A stretch of DNA of 57,044 nt from positions 1 to 57,044 of the forward strand of contig JABSOZ010000026.1 in assembly GCA_013215295.1 (NCBI GenBank). The letters run 5' to 3'. Position numbers and translations under genes: made by a program. Numbering within the stretch: the stretch's first letter is position 1; each line of letters opens with the position of its first letter. The notes below the pieces were generated by a model, which saw nothing but the letters and a program-made list of their open reading frames with translations, did no database searches and had not been told where the DNA came from. The stretch is from Colwellia sp. GTDB taxonomy: Bacteria; Pseudomonadota; Gammaproteobacteria; Enterobacterales; Alteromonadaceae. Below, piece after piece: positions 687-32,105 of the stretch.

Positions 687-705
687 GTGTCTCCCTGGGA
701 GACAC
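687..705. promoter_or_regulatory. 19-bp perfect palindrome, copy 1 (candidate parS or ParB/ParA operator)
   Basis: The sequence GTGTCTCCCTGGGAGACAC is a perfect inverted repeat with 9-bp arms around a single central T. The identical palindrome, with central A, recurs at 1776-1794 in the parA-parB gap. It is GC-rich in a very AT-rich setting and lies about 120 bp before parA. Palindromes of this size next to parAB usually bind ParB (centromere) or the Par autorepressor; which of these applies here is inferred. Confidence 0.7.
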
Positions 706-1775: not shown

Positions 1776-1794
1776 GTGTCTCCCAGGGAGACAC
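1776..1794. promoter_or_regulatory. 19-bp perfect palindrome, copy 2 (candidate parS or operator)
   Basis: GTGTCTCCCAGGGAGACAC has 9-bp arms around a central A and is the reverse complement of the copy at 687-705. It lies between the parA stop (1773) and the parB ribosome-binding site (AAGGA, 1796-1800). A protein bound here, or the RNA hairpin it would form, could affect parB expression as well as act as a centromere. Confidence 0.7.
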
Positions 1795-2848: not shown

Positions 2849-3229
2849 ATGGTTCGTATTAAAAACCCTACTTCTGTACAGATAAAAAAAAGAATGTCCG
2901 TAAGAGTTCCATTAGGAATGATAACGCGTATCGAGATAGATCTCCTCGCTTCTGGCTACAACAAGAAGCAACGATTCTTTTGGTTTGAAGATGTAATAAA
3001 TGAATTATTCTTAACGCCCGATTATCACAACCTGATTGCAGAAGAATTTATAACTGCGGGAACGACTAAAGTGGTTACATTGAGTATTAGCAATAATACT
3101 TATAAGAAAGTTGAGGCTACCGTTGCGGAAGTATTAGCAATAGAAAAATATAATACTGATAAAAGCTCAATTATACGTACAGCAATTATTCAACGCCTAC
3201 TTAATAAAACAAACGAGCATCTGGTATAG
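2849..3229 (+). CDS. Small protein with two ribbon-helix-helix-like units
   Basis: This 126-residue basic protein is not a family I can name with certainty. It appears to contain two similar units. Each starts with a short alternating strand (KRMSVRVP near residue 14; KVVTLSIS near residue 73), followed by a helix and a second helix (WFEDVINELF; KSSIIRTAIIQRLL). That pattern matches ribbon-helix-helix (CopG/Arc-like) DNA-binding folds, here possibly as a single-chain pseudo-dimer. It lies 10 bp after parB and 11 bp before repA, so it is probably a copy-number or operon regulator. The AACATAC/GTATGTT palindromes are plausible targets (inference). Confidence 0.6.
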   Translation: MVRIKNPTSVQIKKRMSVRVPLGMITRIEIDLLASGYNKKQRFFWFEDVINELFLTPDYHNLIAEEFITAGTTKVVTLSISNNTYKKVEATVAEVLAIEKYNTDKSSIIRTAIIQRLLNKTNEHLV

Positions 3230-3240
3230 GAAGATAAACT

Positions 3241-4104
3241 ATGAGTTCTGATTTAATAGCTTCTGAACAGCTAGAATTATTTGTAGCAAACATAATTGAT
3301 GCTGCGCCTAAAGGTGATACACAATCAATGGAATTCCCTTTGTTCAGTATAAGCTCCAAAAGAGATACCGATACTTATCGTTATCAAAATAAAAAAACAG
3401 GTGCTTCTATAGAGATTGTCCCTAACGAAAAGGGAAGGGCAACCATCCATGATAAGGATTTACTATTATATTGTTTTGGTCAAATTGCCGAAGCCAATAA
3501 TAGAGGTATTCCTATTGGCCAAAAGATCCATGTGACTCTGTACGACTTCCTAAAGACAACAAAAAAGGGTACTGATGGGAAAGCTTATAAATCTGTATTA
3601 GAGTCCTTGAAAAGGCTAACTGGGACAACCGTCTATACAACAACAAGACAAGATAACTTCAAGAAAGATAAAGGATTTAGCTTTATTAGTGATTACGATT
3701 TAATTACCGATGAAAAAACAGGGAGAATGAAATATGTGGAACTAATACTACCAAATATATTATTTAACGCTGTGAGCAATAACCAAATACTAACATATTC
3801 TTCAGAGTACTTTTCTCTAAGATCTCCATACGATAGGAGGTTATATGAGTTATGTAGAAAACATTGTGGCAACCAAACACAATGGGAGATAGGCTTTGAG
3901 AACCTATATAACAAGTTCGGGGTAAAATCACCATTGAGAGAATTTAGACGAAAAATAAAAGAAATCGTTAAAAAACAATCAATACCTGACTACTGTTTAA
4001 TGTACGCAGATGCTAAAACGTCTGGAACTATTGAAAAAATCATTGTTTTTAAAGACAAAAGTGGTGAAATTAAACATGACTTTTTGAGTAATAATAATGA
4101 CTAA
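3241..4104 (+). CDS. repA: Plasmid/chromid replication initiator protein (RPA family)
   Basis: This 287-residue protein resembles the 'replication initiator protein A' (RPA, PF10134-type) family. Such proteins have winged-helix domains and bind iterons to open the replicon's origin. Typical features are the N-terminal MEFPLFSISSKRDT segment, the DKDLLLYCFGQI helix and a region resembling LYDFLKTTKKGTDGKAYKSV. A YFSLRSPYDRRLYELCRKHC winged-helix segment lies near residues 188-210. It ends directly at an iteron array (4108-4531), the normal arrangement for an initiator and its own origin. It is the last gene of the parA-parB-RHH-repA operon. Confidence 0.85.
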   Translation: MSSDLIASEQLELFVANIIDAAPKGDTQSMEFPLFSISSKRDTDTYRYQNKKTGASIEIVPNEKGRATIHDKDLLLYCFGQIAEANNRGIPIGQKIHVTLYDFLKTTKKGTDGKAYKSVLESLKRLTGTTVYTTTRQDNFKKDKGFSFISDYDLITDEKTGRMKYVELILPNILFNAVSNNQILTYSSEYFSLRSPYDRRLYELCRKHCGNQTQWEIGFENLYNKFGVKSPLREFRRKIKEIVKKQSIPDYCLMYADAKTSGTIEKIIVFKDKSGEIKHDFLSNNND

Positions 4105-4107
4105 TTA

Positions 4108-4124
4108 TCGGGGTTTTAAACACA
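4108..4124 (+). repeat. Iteron 1
   Basis: TCGGGGTTTTAAACACA, starting 3 bp after the repA stop. It defines the consensus of the array and is repeated exactly at 4291-4307. Confidence 0.8.
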
Positions 4125-4159
4125 GTAAGTAATAAAATCAGTAGAATCGTGAATAATAG

Positions 4160-4176
4160 ACGGGGTTTTGAACACA
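4160..4176 (+). repeat. Iteron 2
   Basis: ACGGGGTTTTGAACACA; differs from the consensus at two positions. Confidence 0.75.
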
Positions 4177-4246
4177 TAATAATTTAATAAATACATATTT
4201 TGGGCCTATTTGCATAAAAGTTGACGAAGAAACAATCAAAAAAAAG

Positions 4247-4265
4247 ATAACATACGGTATGTTAT
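4247..4265. promoter_or_regulatory. 19-bp palindrome in the origin (AACATAC/GTATGTT half-sites)
   Basis: ATAACATAC and GTATGTTAT are perfect 9-bp inverted arms around a central G. The inner half-sites AACATAC and GTATGTT also flank the -10 box of parA (780-806). GTATGTT is additionally the start of the E. coli Ter core, which matters because a Tus-like gene lies 480 bp away. A binding site for the RHH-like regulator or for the Tus-like protein is possible. Confidence 0.6.
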
Positions 4266-4290
4266 TTTGAATTTAGATGTAAATTAACAT

Positions 4291-4307
4291 TCGGGGTTTT
4301 AAACACA
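4291..4307 (+). repeat. Iteron 3
   Basis: TCGGGGTTTTAAACACA, identical to iteron 1. Confidence 0.8.
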
Positions 4308-4368
4308 ACATTAATGTAGATAAAATTGAGCTTTATGTAATAAATAACATAATAACCTGTATATAGAC

Positions 4369-4377
4369 TGTGCATAA
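4369..4377 (-). promoter_or_regulatory. DnaA box
   Basis: TGTGCATAA reads TTATGCACA on the minus strand and fits the DnaA-box consensus TTATNCACA exactly. It lies among the iterons, which suggests that host DnaA assists initiation. Confidence 0.65.
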
Positions 4378-4413
4378 CCTGTTTATTATAACGTGTTATT
4401 AAACACGTATATA

Positions 4414-4430
4414 TCGGGGTATTAAACACA
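4414..4430 (+). repeat. Iteron 4
   Basis: TCGGGGTATTAAACACA; one mismatch to iteron 1. A degenerate copy (ACGTGTTATTAAACACG) lies just before it at 4391-4407. Confidence 0.75.
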
Positions 4431-4458
4431 TAAGGCACGAGATTGTAGACACAAACTA

Positions 4459-4475
4459 ACGGGGGTTTAAACACG
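4459..4475 (+). repeat. Iteron 5
   Basis: ACGGGGGTTTAAACACG; keeps the G-run and the AAACAC end of the motif, with three changes from iteron 1. Confidence 0.65.
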
Positions 4476-4492
4476 CTACTAACCACAATGTA

Positions 4493-4509
4493 CTGTGGTT
4501 ATAAACACA
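4493..4509 (+). repeat. Iteron 6 (diverged)
   Basis: CTGTGGTTATAAACACA; the right half matches iteron 1 while the left half is diverged. Confidence 0.55.
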
Positions 4510-4514
4510 AAACA

Positions 4515-4531
4515 TCGGGTTGTTGAACACA
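4515..4531 (+). repeat. Iteron 7 (diverged)
   Basis: TCGGGTTGTTGAACACA; the last recognisable copy of the array. Confidence 0.6.
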
Positions 4532-4745
4532 GAACTATGCTATGAGTCATATGAAATAAGGGTTTGCGCTGACGTAACCTATTAACTCCATAACTTAATG
4601 GTTAACTATAATAACTAAATATCTATAACGAGAAATATTAACTTTATTAGAAATATTGATACTGTAAAATATATTTAAATTAAATAAGTAAATCAAAAGT
4701 TAGTAAGAGTAATTTAGCTTCGGATGAATTTAAAAAGAGTCAAAA

Positions 4746-5657
4746 ATGCAAAGTGATGAATTTGAATTGCTATTGAAAAGCACCGGAATAGTATTAAAAG
4801 GTCTATTTATTGAATTAAATAACGCTCAAAGTAAGTTTATTAAGCATAGTGCTGAAAAAGGTTACCTATTATTTATAGAAAACCAAAGGTTTACGCTAGA
4901 AGAAATAGGGTACACAGACAGTTATAAGATCAAAAAAGCATTAGGAAAAGTGTTAGCCCTAGAATATGATGAAGGTGTTTCCATTACAAAATTACCAGGA
5001 ACAACAGAAACGTTCCATGCAGTAATAGCACTTCCATATGAAAGTTTAAATATTATTCAAAAAATTAATGGACTAAAAGCTGAAATAGGTTCAGTGATGA
5101 AAGAATATGTAGATGAAAGGGTAAAAATAAATGGTCAATGGACACCTGTTAATAAAGCTTTATTAAAGGAAATTGGCAGGCCTAGGGTAAACTTAAAGCA
5201 AATTAGGCGTCGATTAAATCACCATAAAGATTATTATCAAAGATTATCATTAAGCTGTACTAATTCACGGCCGTCATATAAAAAAAATAAATTAGAAATC
5301 ATAGAATTGCTGAAAAAGATTAAAAATGATACAGCGAAAGAAGACATAAAGTTTTTAGATAAATATAGTAATGATACGGAATTTGCATATTTTTATGATA
5401 AAACTTACTCCGTCATAGATGGAAATTTTAGATATAAAGAAAGTGTATATAATGATCCTACCAATGAAATAGATAAAAAATTTCGAACACAAAAAATATC
5501 TTCACCTGTGTACATAATATGTGATGATCCAAAGAAGATTGATATAGAAATAATTTTTCGAAATAAAGAGAAAAAGCAAAAGAAAAGAGTAGGTTATAAG
5601 AATGTAATTTTGAAAGAAAAAATACTAATGACTTTACCTGTCTTTGAATATGAGTAA
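4746..5657 (+). CDS. tus: Tus-like DNA replication terminus site-binding protein
   Basis: This 303-residue protein is similar in length to E. coli Tus (309). By hand comparison it shares the KLPG strand after residue 80 (Tus RLPG), the helix IIQKINGLKAEIGSVMKEYV (Tus IQHINKLKTTFEHIV), the basic RPSYKKNKLEIIELLKKIK segment (Tus FGWANKHIIKNLHRDEV), a SPVYIICDD strand (Tus TPLIALINRD) and the closing ILMTLPVFEYE strand (Tus LRLIIPRLHLYVAD). Tus binds Ter DNA and blocks replication forks from one side. The position aligned with Tus His144, which helps lock onto Ter, appears to be Asn here, though the alignment is manual. The gene lies about 215 bp beyond the iterons and reads away from the origin. 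AAGAG precedes the start. Confidence 0.65.
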   Translation: MQSDEFELLLKSTGIVLKGLFIELNNAQSKFIKHSAEKGYLLFIENQRFTLEEIGYTDSYKIKKALGKVLALEYDEGVSITKLPGTTETFHAVIALPYESLNIIQKINGLKAEIGSVMKEYVDERVKINGQWTPVNKALLKEIGRPRVNLKQIRRRLNHHKDYYQRLSLSCTNSRPSYKKNKLEIIELLKKIKNDTAKEDIKFLDKYSNDTEFAYFYDKTYSVIDGNFRYKESVYNDPTNEIDKKFRTQKISSPVYIICDDPKKIDIEIIFRNKEKKQKKRVGYKNVILKEKILMTLPVFEYE

Positions 5658-5760: not shown

Positions 5761-6399
5761 TTGTTAGAATTAATAAAATACTTAAACGATAATTTTTTTA
5801 CTAAACAAGAACTACTTAATGTAACTAAGATCCAACAACAAACGTTGTTAGATTACCAAGAGTTAAAAGTTATGCCAAAATGCTCTTATAAGTTAAATAT
5901 TGATTTACAAAGTGATTCAGTTTTTGGTTTGTATAATGAAGAACAAGAAATAGAATATTATGCGAAAGGTTACGCTTCTTGGTTAGCTACGATAGAATCT
6001 ATAAAACCTCCGGAAACCGGTTATTCTGTATTCTCTGAGCGTTATAAAGTTGCAATAAATACCCTTAAAGAAGATGGGTATACAACGAGCTCCTCGAAAG
6101 TAACCACTGAATTGAATCAGCACATTAAGGAAGAATGGTCCCACTTTATAAATGGCGTATACGGATTGTGCACAAAATCTGGTTTACCTGAAGATATAGC
6201 AGCTAAGGAGCTTGCGGTTATTATAATCACAGAACTATCAGAAATTAATGAATTAAGCGCTGATGAAATGACTAAGCTTACTTCAGCTGTAAATCTATTG
6301 GACAAAGCTAGTTCTTTGTTTGCACCACATGAAAGGTTACGAAGTTCAAGGCATCGATTGGTCAATGAAACACGTAGAAAATATATGTTAAACAGCTAA
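5761..6399 (+). CDS. DUF6058-family protein
   Basis: This 212-residue soluble protein resembles the DUF6058 family, which some annotations link loosely to natural-product loci; its function is not established. The N-terminus (LIKYLNDNFFTKQELLNVTKI) looks like a winged-helix or MerR-like DNA-binding unit whose second helix contains LLDYQELKVMP. The rest is helical, with no catalytic motif that I can see. The TTG start is chosen because GGAG lies 8 bp upstream (in ATGGAGATTTAACA). It stands alone after tus, with no clear operon partner. Confidence 0.55.
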   Translation: MLELIKYLNDNFFTKQELLNVTKIQQQTLLDYQELKVMPKCSYKLNIDLQSDSVFGLYNEEQEIEYYAKGYASWLATIESIKPPETGYSVFSERYKVAINTLKEDGYTTSSSKVTTELNQHIKEEWSHFINGVYGLCTKSGLPEDIAAKELAVIIITELSEINELSADEMTKLTSAVNLLDKASSLFAPHERLRSSRHRLVNETRRKYMLNS

Positions 6400-20781: not shown

Positions 20782-21042
20782 ATGAAATGCACAATTCTTA
20801 TTTTTATTCTTTTTTTAAGTGGCTGTGTTGTATTACCGACTGACGATAATACATACGTTAACAAATGTGAAATTTCGAGTGATCGAAAGACATTAAAAGT
20901 GGTGAGTGCTTCAGAAGGTTTGAACACTTTTTATTCTATAAGTGATTTACTTTTGTTACCCGTAACGGGCGTTATCGTAGGTATATATGTAGGGGTTAAT
21001 AATATATATCACCTTGGAGAAGAAAAAATTGTTTGTGGTTGA
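20782..21042 (+). CDS. Small lipoprotein, hypothetical
   Basis: An 86-residue protein with a short lipoprotein signal peptide and lipobox LSGC near residues 12-15, so it should be lipid-anchored. The mature part has two Cys at about 29 and 85 that could form a disulfide, and a hydrophobic central stretch (LLLLPVTGVIVGIYVGV). No family is recognised. GGGAT is placed as a weak ribosome-binding site. Confidence 0.6.
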   Translation: MKCTILIFILFLSGCVVLPTDDNTYVNKCEISSDRKTLKVVSASEGLNTFYSISDLLLLPVTGVIVGIYVGVNNIYHLGEEKIVCG

Positions 21043-31993: not shown

Positions 31994-32050
31994 TTTTTTT
32001 GTGATGACCCATGTGACCCAGCTAGTCAAAGGGTACATGGTGGCATTGCA

Positions 32051-32105
32051 ATAATCAAATAATAATCAAATAATAATCAAATAATAATCAAAAAATAATC
32101 AAAAA
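32051..32105. repeat. Five tandem 11-bp repeats
   Basis: ATAATCAAATA occurs three times head to tail, then twice as ATAATCAAAAA. It lies 58 bp upstream of the GntR start. A-tracts repeated every 11 bp are nearly in phase with the DNA helix, so the segment may be curved and could also provide regulator sites. Confidence 0.8.

Follow-up and report, generated by a model that had tools for sequence, protein, structure and literature searches.

Plasmid R1 relies on the Tus protein of its Escherichia coli host. Ter sites at the R1 origin make replication run one way and guard against aberrant intermediates and loss of the plasmid, as set out in portions of PMC10331603 and PMC8347550. In Pseudoalteromonas, passages of PMC6549158 report that a tus gene systematically adjoins the origin of the second chromosome, describe plasmid-borne "mobile" tus genes, and propose that chromosomal tus was domesticated from plasmids. 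According to sections of PMC7858055, most Pseudoalteromonas chromids replicate one way, a fork block near ori2 is discussed, and in the chromid of P. tunicata an E. coli-like ter was not found near the expected place. One-way replication of one Pseudoalteromonas chromid is restated in an excerpt of PMC13342612, and Ter sequences immediately upstream of tus genes are noted in an excerpt of PMC8707476.

Here, we analyzed a Colwellia sequence for which a Tus-like gene had been predicted right beside a replication origin, on the premise that Tus normally acts in the terminus. This premise is half right: tus adjoins the origin in Pseudoalteromonas, and R1 has its Ter sites at the origin (parts of PMC6549158, PMC7858055, and PMC10331603). 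With origin-adjacent tus genes and one-way chromids both in the literature, the predicted layout is thus a known kind of arrangement. What sets this locus apart is the unusual divergence of the protein together with several missing lock residues; origin-adjacent Tus genes were already known in other bacteria. In searches of part of the literature, made with other search words, no report of a Tus this divergent or of a Tus on an RPA/Rep3 replicon was seen.

A plasmid-type origin between partition genes and a putative Tus gene

The window (the whole stretch of DNA that we analyzed) is one entire contig of 57,044 bases, G000:C19, from a draft genome of 5.77 Mb in 52 contigs. An overlap of 21 to 200 bases between its ends was not found; over the lengths tested, the contig is therefore not a closed circle, and the replicon is known from these 57 kb. 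From left to right, the contig carries a 19-bp palindrome, ParA, a second palindrome, a ParB-like protein, a 126-aa ORF, an RPA/Rep3 initiator, seven iteron-like repeats, and a 303-aa ORF (Table 1). With a putative Tus-family gene adjoining both parAB and the origin on a plasmid-derived replicon, this arrangement is like that described for Pseudoalteromonas ori2 in parts of PMC6549158 and PMC7858055.

Table 1 Features of the origin region, with positions in the window
Feature	Position	Strand	Basis or remark
19-bp palindrome, candidate parS-like site	687..705; second copy 1776-1794	.	function inferred
ParA-type partition ATPase, 315 aa	826..1773	+	Pfam AAA_31 E 4e-19, CbiA E 8e-15
ParB-like protein, 343 aa	1807..2838	+	position after ParA; sub-cut-off profile matches
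Small ORF, 126 aa, no assigned function	2849..3229	+	no match in Pfam or NCBIfam at E 0.1
Plasmid replication initiator RepA (RPA/Rep3 family), 287 aa	3241..4104	+	Pfam PF10134 E 8e-73, Rep3_N E 1e-6
Iteron-like array, seven copies, core CGGGGTTTTAAACACA	4093..4531	+	between initiator gene and 303-aa ORF
AT-rich gap from iterons to Tus-like ORF; predicted promoter and origin-proximal Ter site	4532..4745	+	inferred from E. coli-type layout
Probable remote homologue of Tus (PF05472), 303 aa, with Asn in place of His144	4746..5657	+	hhalign, BLASTP to L030, alignments, model and Foldseek
DUF6058 protein, gene following the Tus-like ORF	5761-6399		PF19531 E 4e-42; first listed start TTG

The window carries a plasmid-type origin. 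Its initiator was matched by tblastn in 1144 plasmid records, every one at less than 60% identity, and, among the 294 other genomes in the relatives set, in 2 (E 1e-10). Unlike the RepA of Pseudoalteromonas, for which portions of PMC6549158 and PMC7858055 give no significant relatives outside the genus, it belongs to the widespread RPA/Rep3 type with iterons. The iteron-like unit is 32 nt long, and each of the seven copies is at least 65% identical to the reference copy, the last one ending at 4531. Searching the whole genome for the 16-nt iteron core with up to 2 mismatches revealed 11 matches, 5 of them clustered at the array and 6 at single places on other contigs; a backward control pattern of the same core had 5 genome matches. 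On another replicon with a related initiator (L034), no Tus-like ORF was seen by eye within 3.7 kb.

The ParB-like protein scored 37.6 bits against TIGR00180 parB_part (cut-off, 58.45) and 20.8 bits against ParB_N (cut-off, 26.3), both below cut-off. The palindrome, GTGTCTCCC(T/A)GGGAGACAC, was found at two places genome-wide when up to one mismatch was allowed, and both flank parA; the two copies are likely parS sites.

Further elements were observed in this region. A 12-bp inverted repeat within the origin, at 4244-4268, has arms AAGATAACATAC and GTATGTTATTTT that are 92% complementary. The element ACATAC/GTATGTTATT is common to this inverted repeat and to the region before parA (777-809). 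At up to one mismatch, GTATGTTATT occurs 17 times versus 10 expected, a count reached by 3 of 100 shuffles, and the element could possibly be an operator common to par and ori. A relaxed DnaA-box-like site, TTATNCACA, lies on the minus strand at 4369 within the iteron region, one of three such sites in the window.

The ATG of the 303-aa ORF (at 4746, with the stop codon ending at 5657) is 214 bp past the last iteron-like copy. The original prediction had these coordinates right and had put the gap at about 215 bp.

The 303-aa ORF is probably a remote Tus homologue

Is the protein encoded next to the iterons related to Tus? Sequence searches of Pfam, NCBIfam, PHROGs, and PDB with the 303-aa ORF did not name Tus. 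The Tus family model, PF05472, gave no hmmscan match to the ORF at E 0.1 and none in a search of the whole genome at E up to 1, so the ORF stays below the curated cut-off. An HMMER profile built from 26 Tus proteins gave it 2 bits and rank 7 among 208 sequences, 200 of which were its own shuffles, a score at chance level. The weak library matches that did appear were to ICAT (Pfam, E 0.08), NrdG (NCBIfam, E 0.01), a small-subunit family of anaerobic ribonucleotide reductase (E 0.01), and a family of unknown function (E 0.06). NrdG was ruled out because the ORF has just two cysteines (171 and 259), so that the CxxxCxxC motif of NrdG is absent.

Relatives of the ORF were equally scarce. At E 0.01, neither the 72,556 plasmid records nor the 50,697 phage records contained one; scans of contigs, both viral and genomic, yielded none that was confirmed, and none was present in the other 146 of 147 relatives. 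Across 394 genomes of the order, a set that overlaps with the relatives, the ORF matched itself and one scrap (E 0.006) with 10 internal stops. A wider profile that included the ORF found nothing beyond the ORF itself in 6 genomes of the genus. The ORF is therefore an orphan among the plasmid, phage, viral, and genome sets searched.

Although these Pfam-level and HMMER searches miss Tus, profile-profile comparison (hhalign), which took in Tus profiles and decoys made from them, gave a match far above its controls. With a profile of 27 Tus sequences, the ORF scored 31, while 31 window ORFs reached at most 20.4 and 60 shuffles at most 19.0. The score rose as the Tus profile broadened, to 41 with 34 sequences (145 control ORFs, at most 23.6) and to 49.0 with 64 rows, including four repeats of the same genes; this last match had Prob 92 and a pairwise E of 8e-7, with residues 78-266 aligned. 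Against the 64-row profile, the 145 control ORFs scored at most 21.5 and 40 shuffles at most 19.4. These control ORFs were mechanical ORFs of 220 to 450 aa from the window and the other loci, 180 records less 35 that matched the Tus model. Decoys made from 30 column-shuffled Tus profiles gave at most 19.2, and a reversed profile gave 12.5 (one of these decoy values may be stale). A separate hhalign run on one alignment (A1) returned a probability of 51.

When 12 Tus subgroups (the names are labels of this analysis) were tried singly, signal came from the enteric/Aeromonadales subgroup (35) and from L030 (34) only; the other ten, the Pseudoalteromonas subgroup among them, scored below 19. Compared with the three-member L030 subgroup (L030, L060, and L061), the ORF scored 43.8 and the controls at most 22.9. 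Seven divergent Tus proteins omitted from the profile scored 83 to 250, which places the 303-aa ORF far out even within the Tus family. Pseudoalteromonas-type Tus proteins, of which L057 is an annotated example, are found by Pfam, whereas the putative Tus of the window is below Pfam detection.

The closest sequence link of the ORF is L030, a Pfam-recognised Tus (32 bits against a cut-off of 22), with which a single BLASTP comparison gave 25% identity over 147 aa at E 1e-5. L030 itself had no Tus match in PDB by phmmer at E 1. The genome that encodes it, G110, has two divergent Tus genes, L030 and L060, which are 30% alike and both without His144. In a MAFFT alignment, the 303-aa ORF was collinear over its full length with 20 canonical Tus rows at 15-22% identity. 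Set beside E. coli Tus-TerB, the ORF appears alike in family, length, and order of the conserved motifs.

Folded from its single sequence, the ORF gave a model with pLDDT 36 and pTM 0.22; a model fed the 20 canonical Tus rows reached pLDDT 56 and pTM 0.54. Foldseek comparison of the latter with PDB revealed Tus (4xr1) as the best match (E 0.017, probability 0.91, TM 0.37), with no match passing E 0.001 and with all other hits among the best 50 of 133 at a probability of 0.16 or less. The model is partly circular, because Tus rows were fed to it. Of the checks proposed alongside the original prediction, structure prediction lends it weak support: Tus is the best PDB match, but the model is weak and biased by the Tus rows. 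The alignment to Tus, also proposed, is collinear.

One potential explanation for the failure of the Pfam, NCBIfam, PHROGs, and PDB sequence searches, and for the chance-level HMMER score, is that the ORF is an unrelated origin-associated DNA-binding protein whose profile match is a chance effect of similar helices; the comparison having taken in Tus profiles and decoys alone fits this explanation too. The gap in hhalign score between the ORF and the 145 control ORFs, the shuffles, and the reversed and column-shuffled profiles argues against it, as does the direct BLASTP link to L030, and we regard it as unlikely. The Tus-likeness of the ORF exceeds chance, and profile-profile comparison indicates homology to the Tus family. 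The sequence data suggest that the 303-aa ORF is most probably a remote Tus homologue below Pfam detection, in agreement with the Tus-like protein that had been predicted.

Residues of the lock pocket are replaced

Three residues are near-invariant, each being kept in 63 of the 64 Tus rows: Asn119, the YR-motif Arg, and Pro259. The ORF has all three. The roles of Phe140, His144, and Gly149, which make up the pocket for the flipped C6 in Tus, are given in Table 1 of PMC10331603. Among the 64 rows, Phe occupies position 140 in 52 and Trp does so in 5, 59 have His at position 144, and at position 149 there are 39 with Gly and 7 with Arg. At these three positions, the ORF carries Trp, Asn (Asn 136), and Arg, so the Phe140/His144/Gly149 pocket is not present in it, and an intact E. 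coli-type lock is unlikely on this evidence. Three other residues, Glu47, Glu49, and Arg198 (E. coli Tus numbering), align to Thr, Ser, and a gap and seem to be lost as well. Relative to E. coli Tus, the ORF thus differs both in its low identity to the canonical rows and in having Asn for His144 and Arg for Gly149. The prediction that Asn takes the place of His144, and that locking may differ, held up: Asn 136 was seen across alignments, and Gly149 is replaced too.

A residue other than His at position 144 was found in five Tus rows: Asn in L030, as in the ORF, Val in L026, Arg in L056, Gln in L060, and Arg in L061. Of these, L056 is an annotated plasmid Tus.

A putative fork barrier at the origin

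How might such a protein act beside an iteron origin? The ORF would supply the replicon with a DNA-binding protein of its own, a highly divergent member of the Tus family. This protein would most likely bind one or two asymmetric sites beside the iterons, probably within the promoter region of its own gene (4532-4745). Once bound, it would block the replication fork in one direction. The outcome would be one-way replication from the iteron origin or a returning fork kept from re-replicating past the origin, in parallel to the host Tus at the terR sites of R1. One-way replication from the iteron origin by fork arrest is our best guess, held with roughly even confidence. The likeness to terRL/terRR of R1 lies in the expected logic, in which a fork barrier at the origin leads to one-way replication (part of PMC10331603). 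In contrast to R1, the window replicon carries its own tus-like gene, the only Tus candidate detected in the host genome. PF05472 had no match in five mates of the same genus either. With no other Tus recognised in the host genome or in these mates, the replicon would need its own.

A search for Ter-like sites near the origin, suggested with the original prediction, identified none near the ORF with the E. coli consensus, which is also missing before most tus genes. In the window, the E. coli Ter core at up to 3 mismatches had 19 matches versus 28 expected, showing no enrichment, and the best match to the Ter consensus in 4532-4745 was 10 of 15 (shuffle p 0.77). In this respect, the locus differs from E. 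coli Tus-TerB. Among the 64 Tus rows, the full consensus was present upstream of tus in two, L003 and L004, where it lies 8-10 bp before the gene; upstream of the other 62, the match was at most 11 of 15 (for L080, 33 bases were scanned). Since the full consensus is missing in 62 of 64 rows, its absence beside the ORF says nothing either way. Upstream of the ORF, 17 of the 17-mers have near copies elsewhere, compared with 1-14 in 25 control stretches, and those shown are AT-rich. The best repeated candidate, around TAACTAAAT at 4603-4624 with near copies at ∼46378 and ∼37951, was not convincing, and near the ORF no further repeated motif was conspicuous.

The replaced residues could also mean that a Tus-family protein no longer arrests forks but binds near the origin, without a locking step, to regulate initiation, copy number, or its own gene. 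Beyond the replacement of His144 and Gly149 and the apparent loss of Glu47, Glu49, and Arg198, this explanation draws on the start of the ORF 214 bp past the iterons and on the two close E. coli-type genes, L003 and L004, in which Ter directly before tus indicates that promoter binding fits the Tus family. However, His144 is also absent in 5 of the 64 Tus rows, the annotated plasmid Tus L056 included, and Gly149 in 25, so their loss alone does not prove a new role. We consider such a regulator doubtful.

Returning to fork arrest, in which direction would the origin fire? In E. coli, a Ter site before tus blocks forks moving in the direction of tus transcription. If this geometry holds, a fork moving rightward would be halted ahead of the ORF, leaving replication to proceed leftward through rep and par. 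GC skew at fourfold sites from 4700 to the end, expressed for the plus strand, was −0.03 in 26 plus ORFs and +0.07 in 16 minus ORFs, and intergenic DNA had 1614 G versus 1513 C. Silent-site and intergenic skew thus gave no clear replication direction.

Tus genes next to rep or par genes on other replicons

We viewed 21 stretches with Tus: 14 genome stretches (L036-L049, with Tus or part-Tus matches) and seven annotated plasmid stretches. Rep or par genes adjoin Tus in five of them (L036, L037, L045, L052, and L057). In L036, ParA is followed by a 413-aa ORF in the place of ParB, a 497-aa ORF without a Pfam match, and then a convergent Tus. L037 is a 6-kb contig (G044:C77) with an Rep3 initiator and a Pfam-recognised Tus 994 bp apart, in the same order and direction as in the window; between them are just two-copy repeats and no iteron array. 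A ParA-type ATPase is near Tus in L045 and, within 6 kb, near the annotated Tus of L057, while L052 has ParB, ParA, and RepA within 6 kb of Tus. The other eleven genome stretches were judged by eye and ParA motif alone. Five of the seven annotated plasmid stretches have no rep or par gene near Tus, and one of these, L056, has a KfrA-type gene nearby. Inspection by eye and a ParA motif revealed no rep or par gene in the stretches around L030, L060, and L061, whereas the window ORF lies beside both rep and par.

Plasmid Tus genes are common, as revealed by two tblastn searches with Tus proteins: one matched 1268 plasmid records, 28 of which had one place covering >80% of the query, and the other matched 2549 records, 1242 of which did. 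In the relatives set, PF05472 matched 32 of 196 genomes at E 0.01, with 28 over the cut-off.

These settings bear on an explanation in which the protein is a fork-arrest Tus with its Ter sites elsewhere on the replicon, opposite the origin, and in which the place of the gene by the origin is incidental. The recurrence of Tus beside rep or par on plasmid-type replicons (the five stretches above) and the position of Ter directly before tus in L003 and L004 speak against it. On its side are the 16 of 21 stretches in which Tus had no visible rep or par neighbor (L056, with its KfrA-type gene nearby, among them) and the visible extent of the replicon, 57 kb with contig ends that do not overlap. We judge this explanation to be very unlikely.

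If a fork barrier at the origin is indeed what the ORF provides, Tus proteins extend beyond the reach of Pfam, and plasmid-borne relatives annotated as hypothetical beside iteron origins could be overlooked. The missing lock residues would then make the ORF a natural test of whether arrest needs the C6 lock. We put forward tentatively, as a somewhat unlikely possibility, a self-supplied fork barrier or regulator at the origin: a Tus that has lost the C6-flip lock and is borne on an iteron replicon of the RPA/Rep3 type would work otherwise than by the mousetrap of E. coli, its host having no other recognisable Tus. The ORF also bears on the proposal, made in a portion of PMC6549158, that tus passed from plasmids to chromosomes by domestication.

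Two repeats were observed in the remainder of the window. A 19-nt motif around AYGTGAAATTTCGA has three copies, at 20865, 28928, and 43798, all on the plus strand and 84-89% like the reference copy. At 32050-32104, an 11-nt unit, AATAATCAAAT, forms a tandem array.
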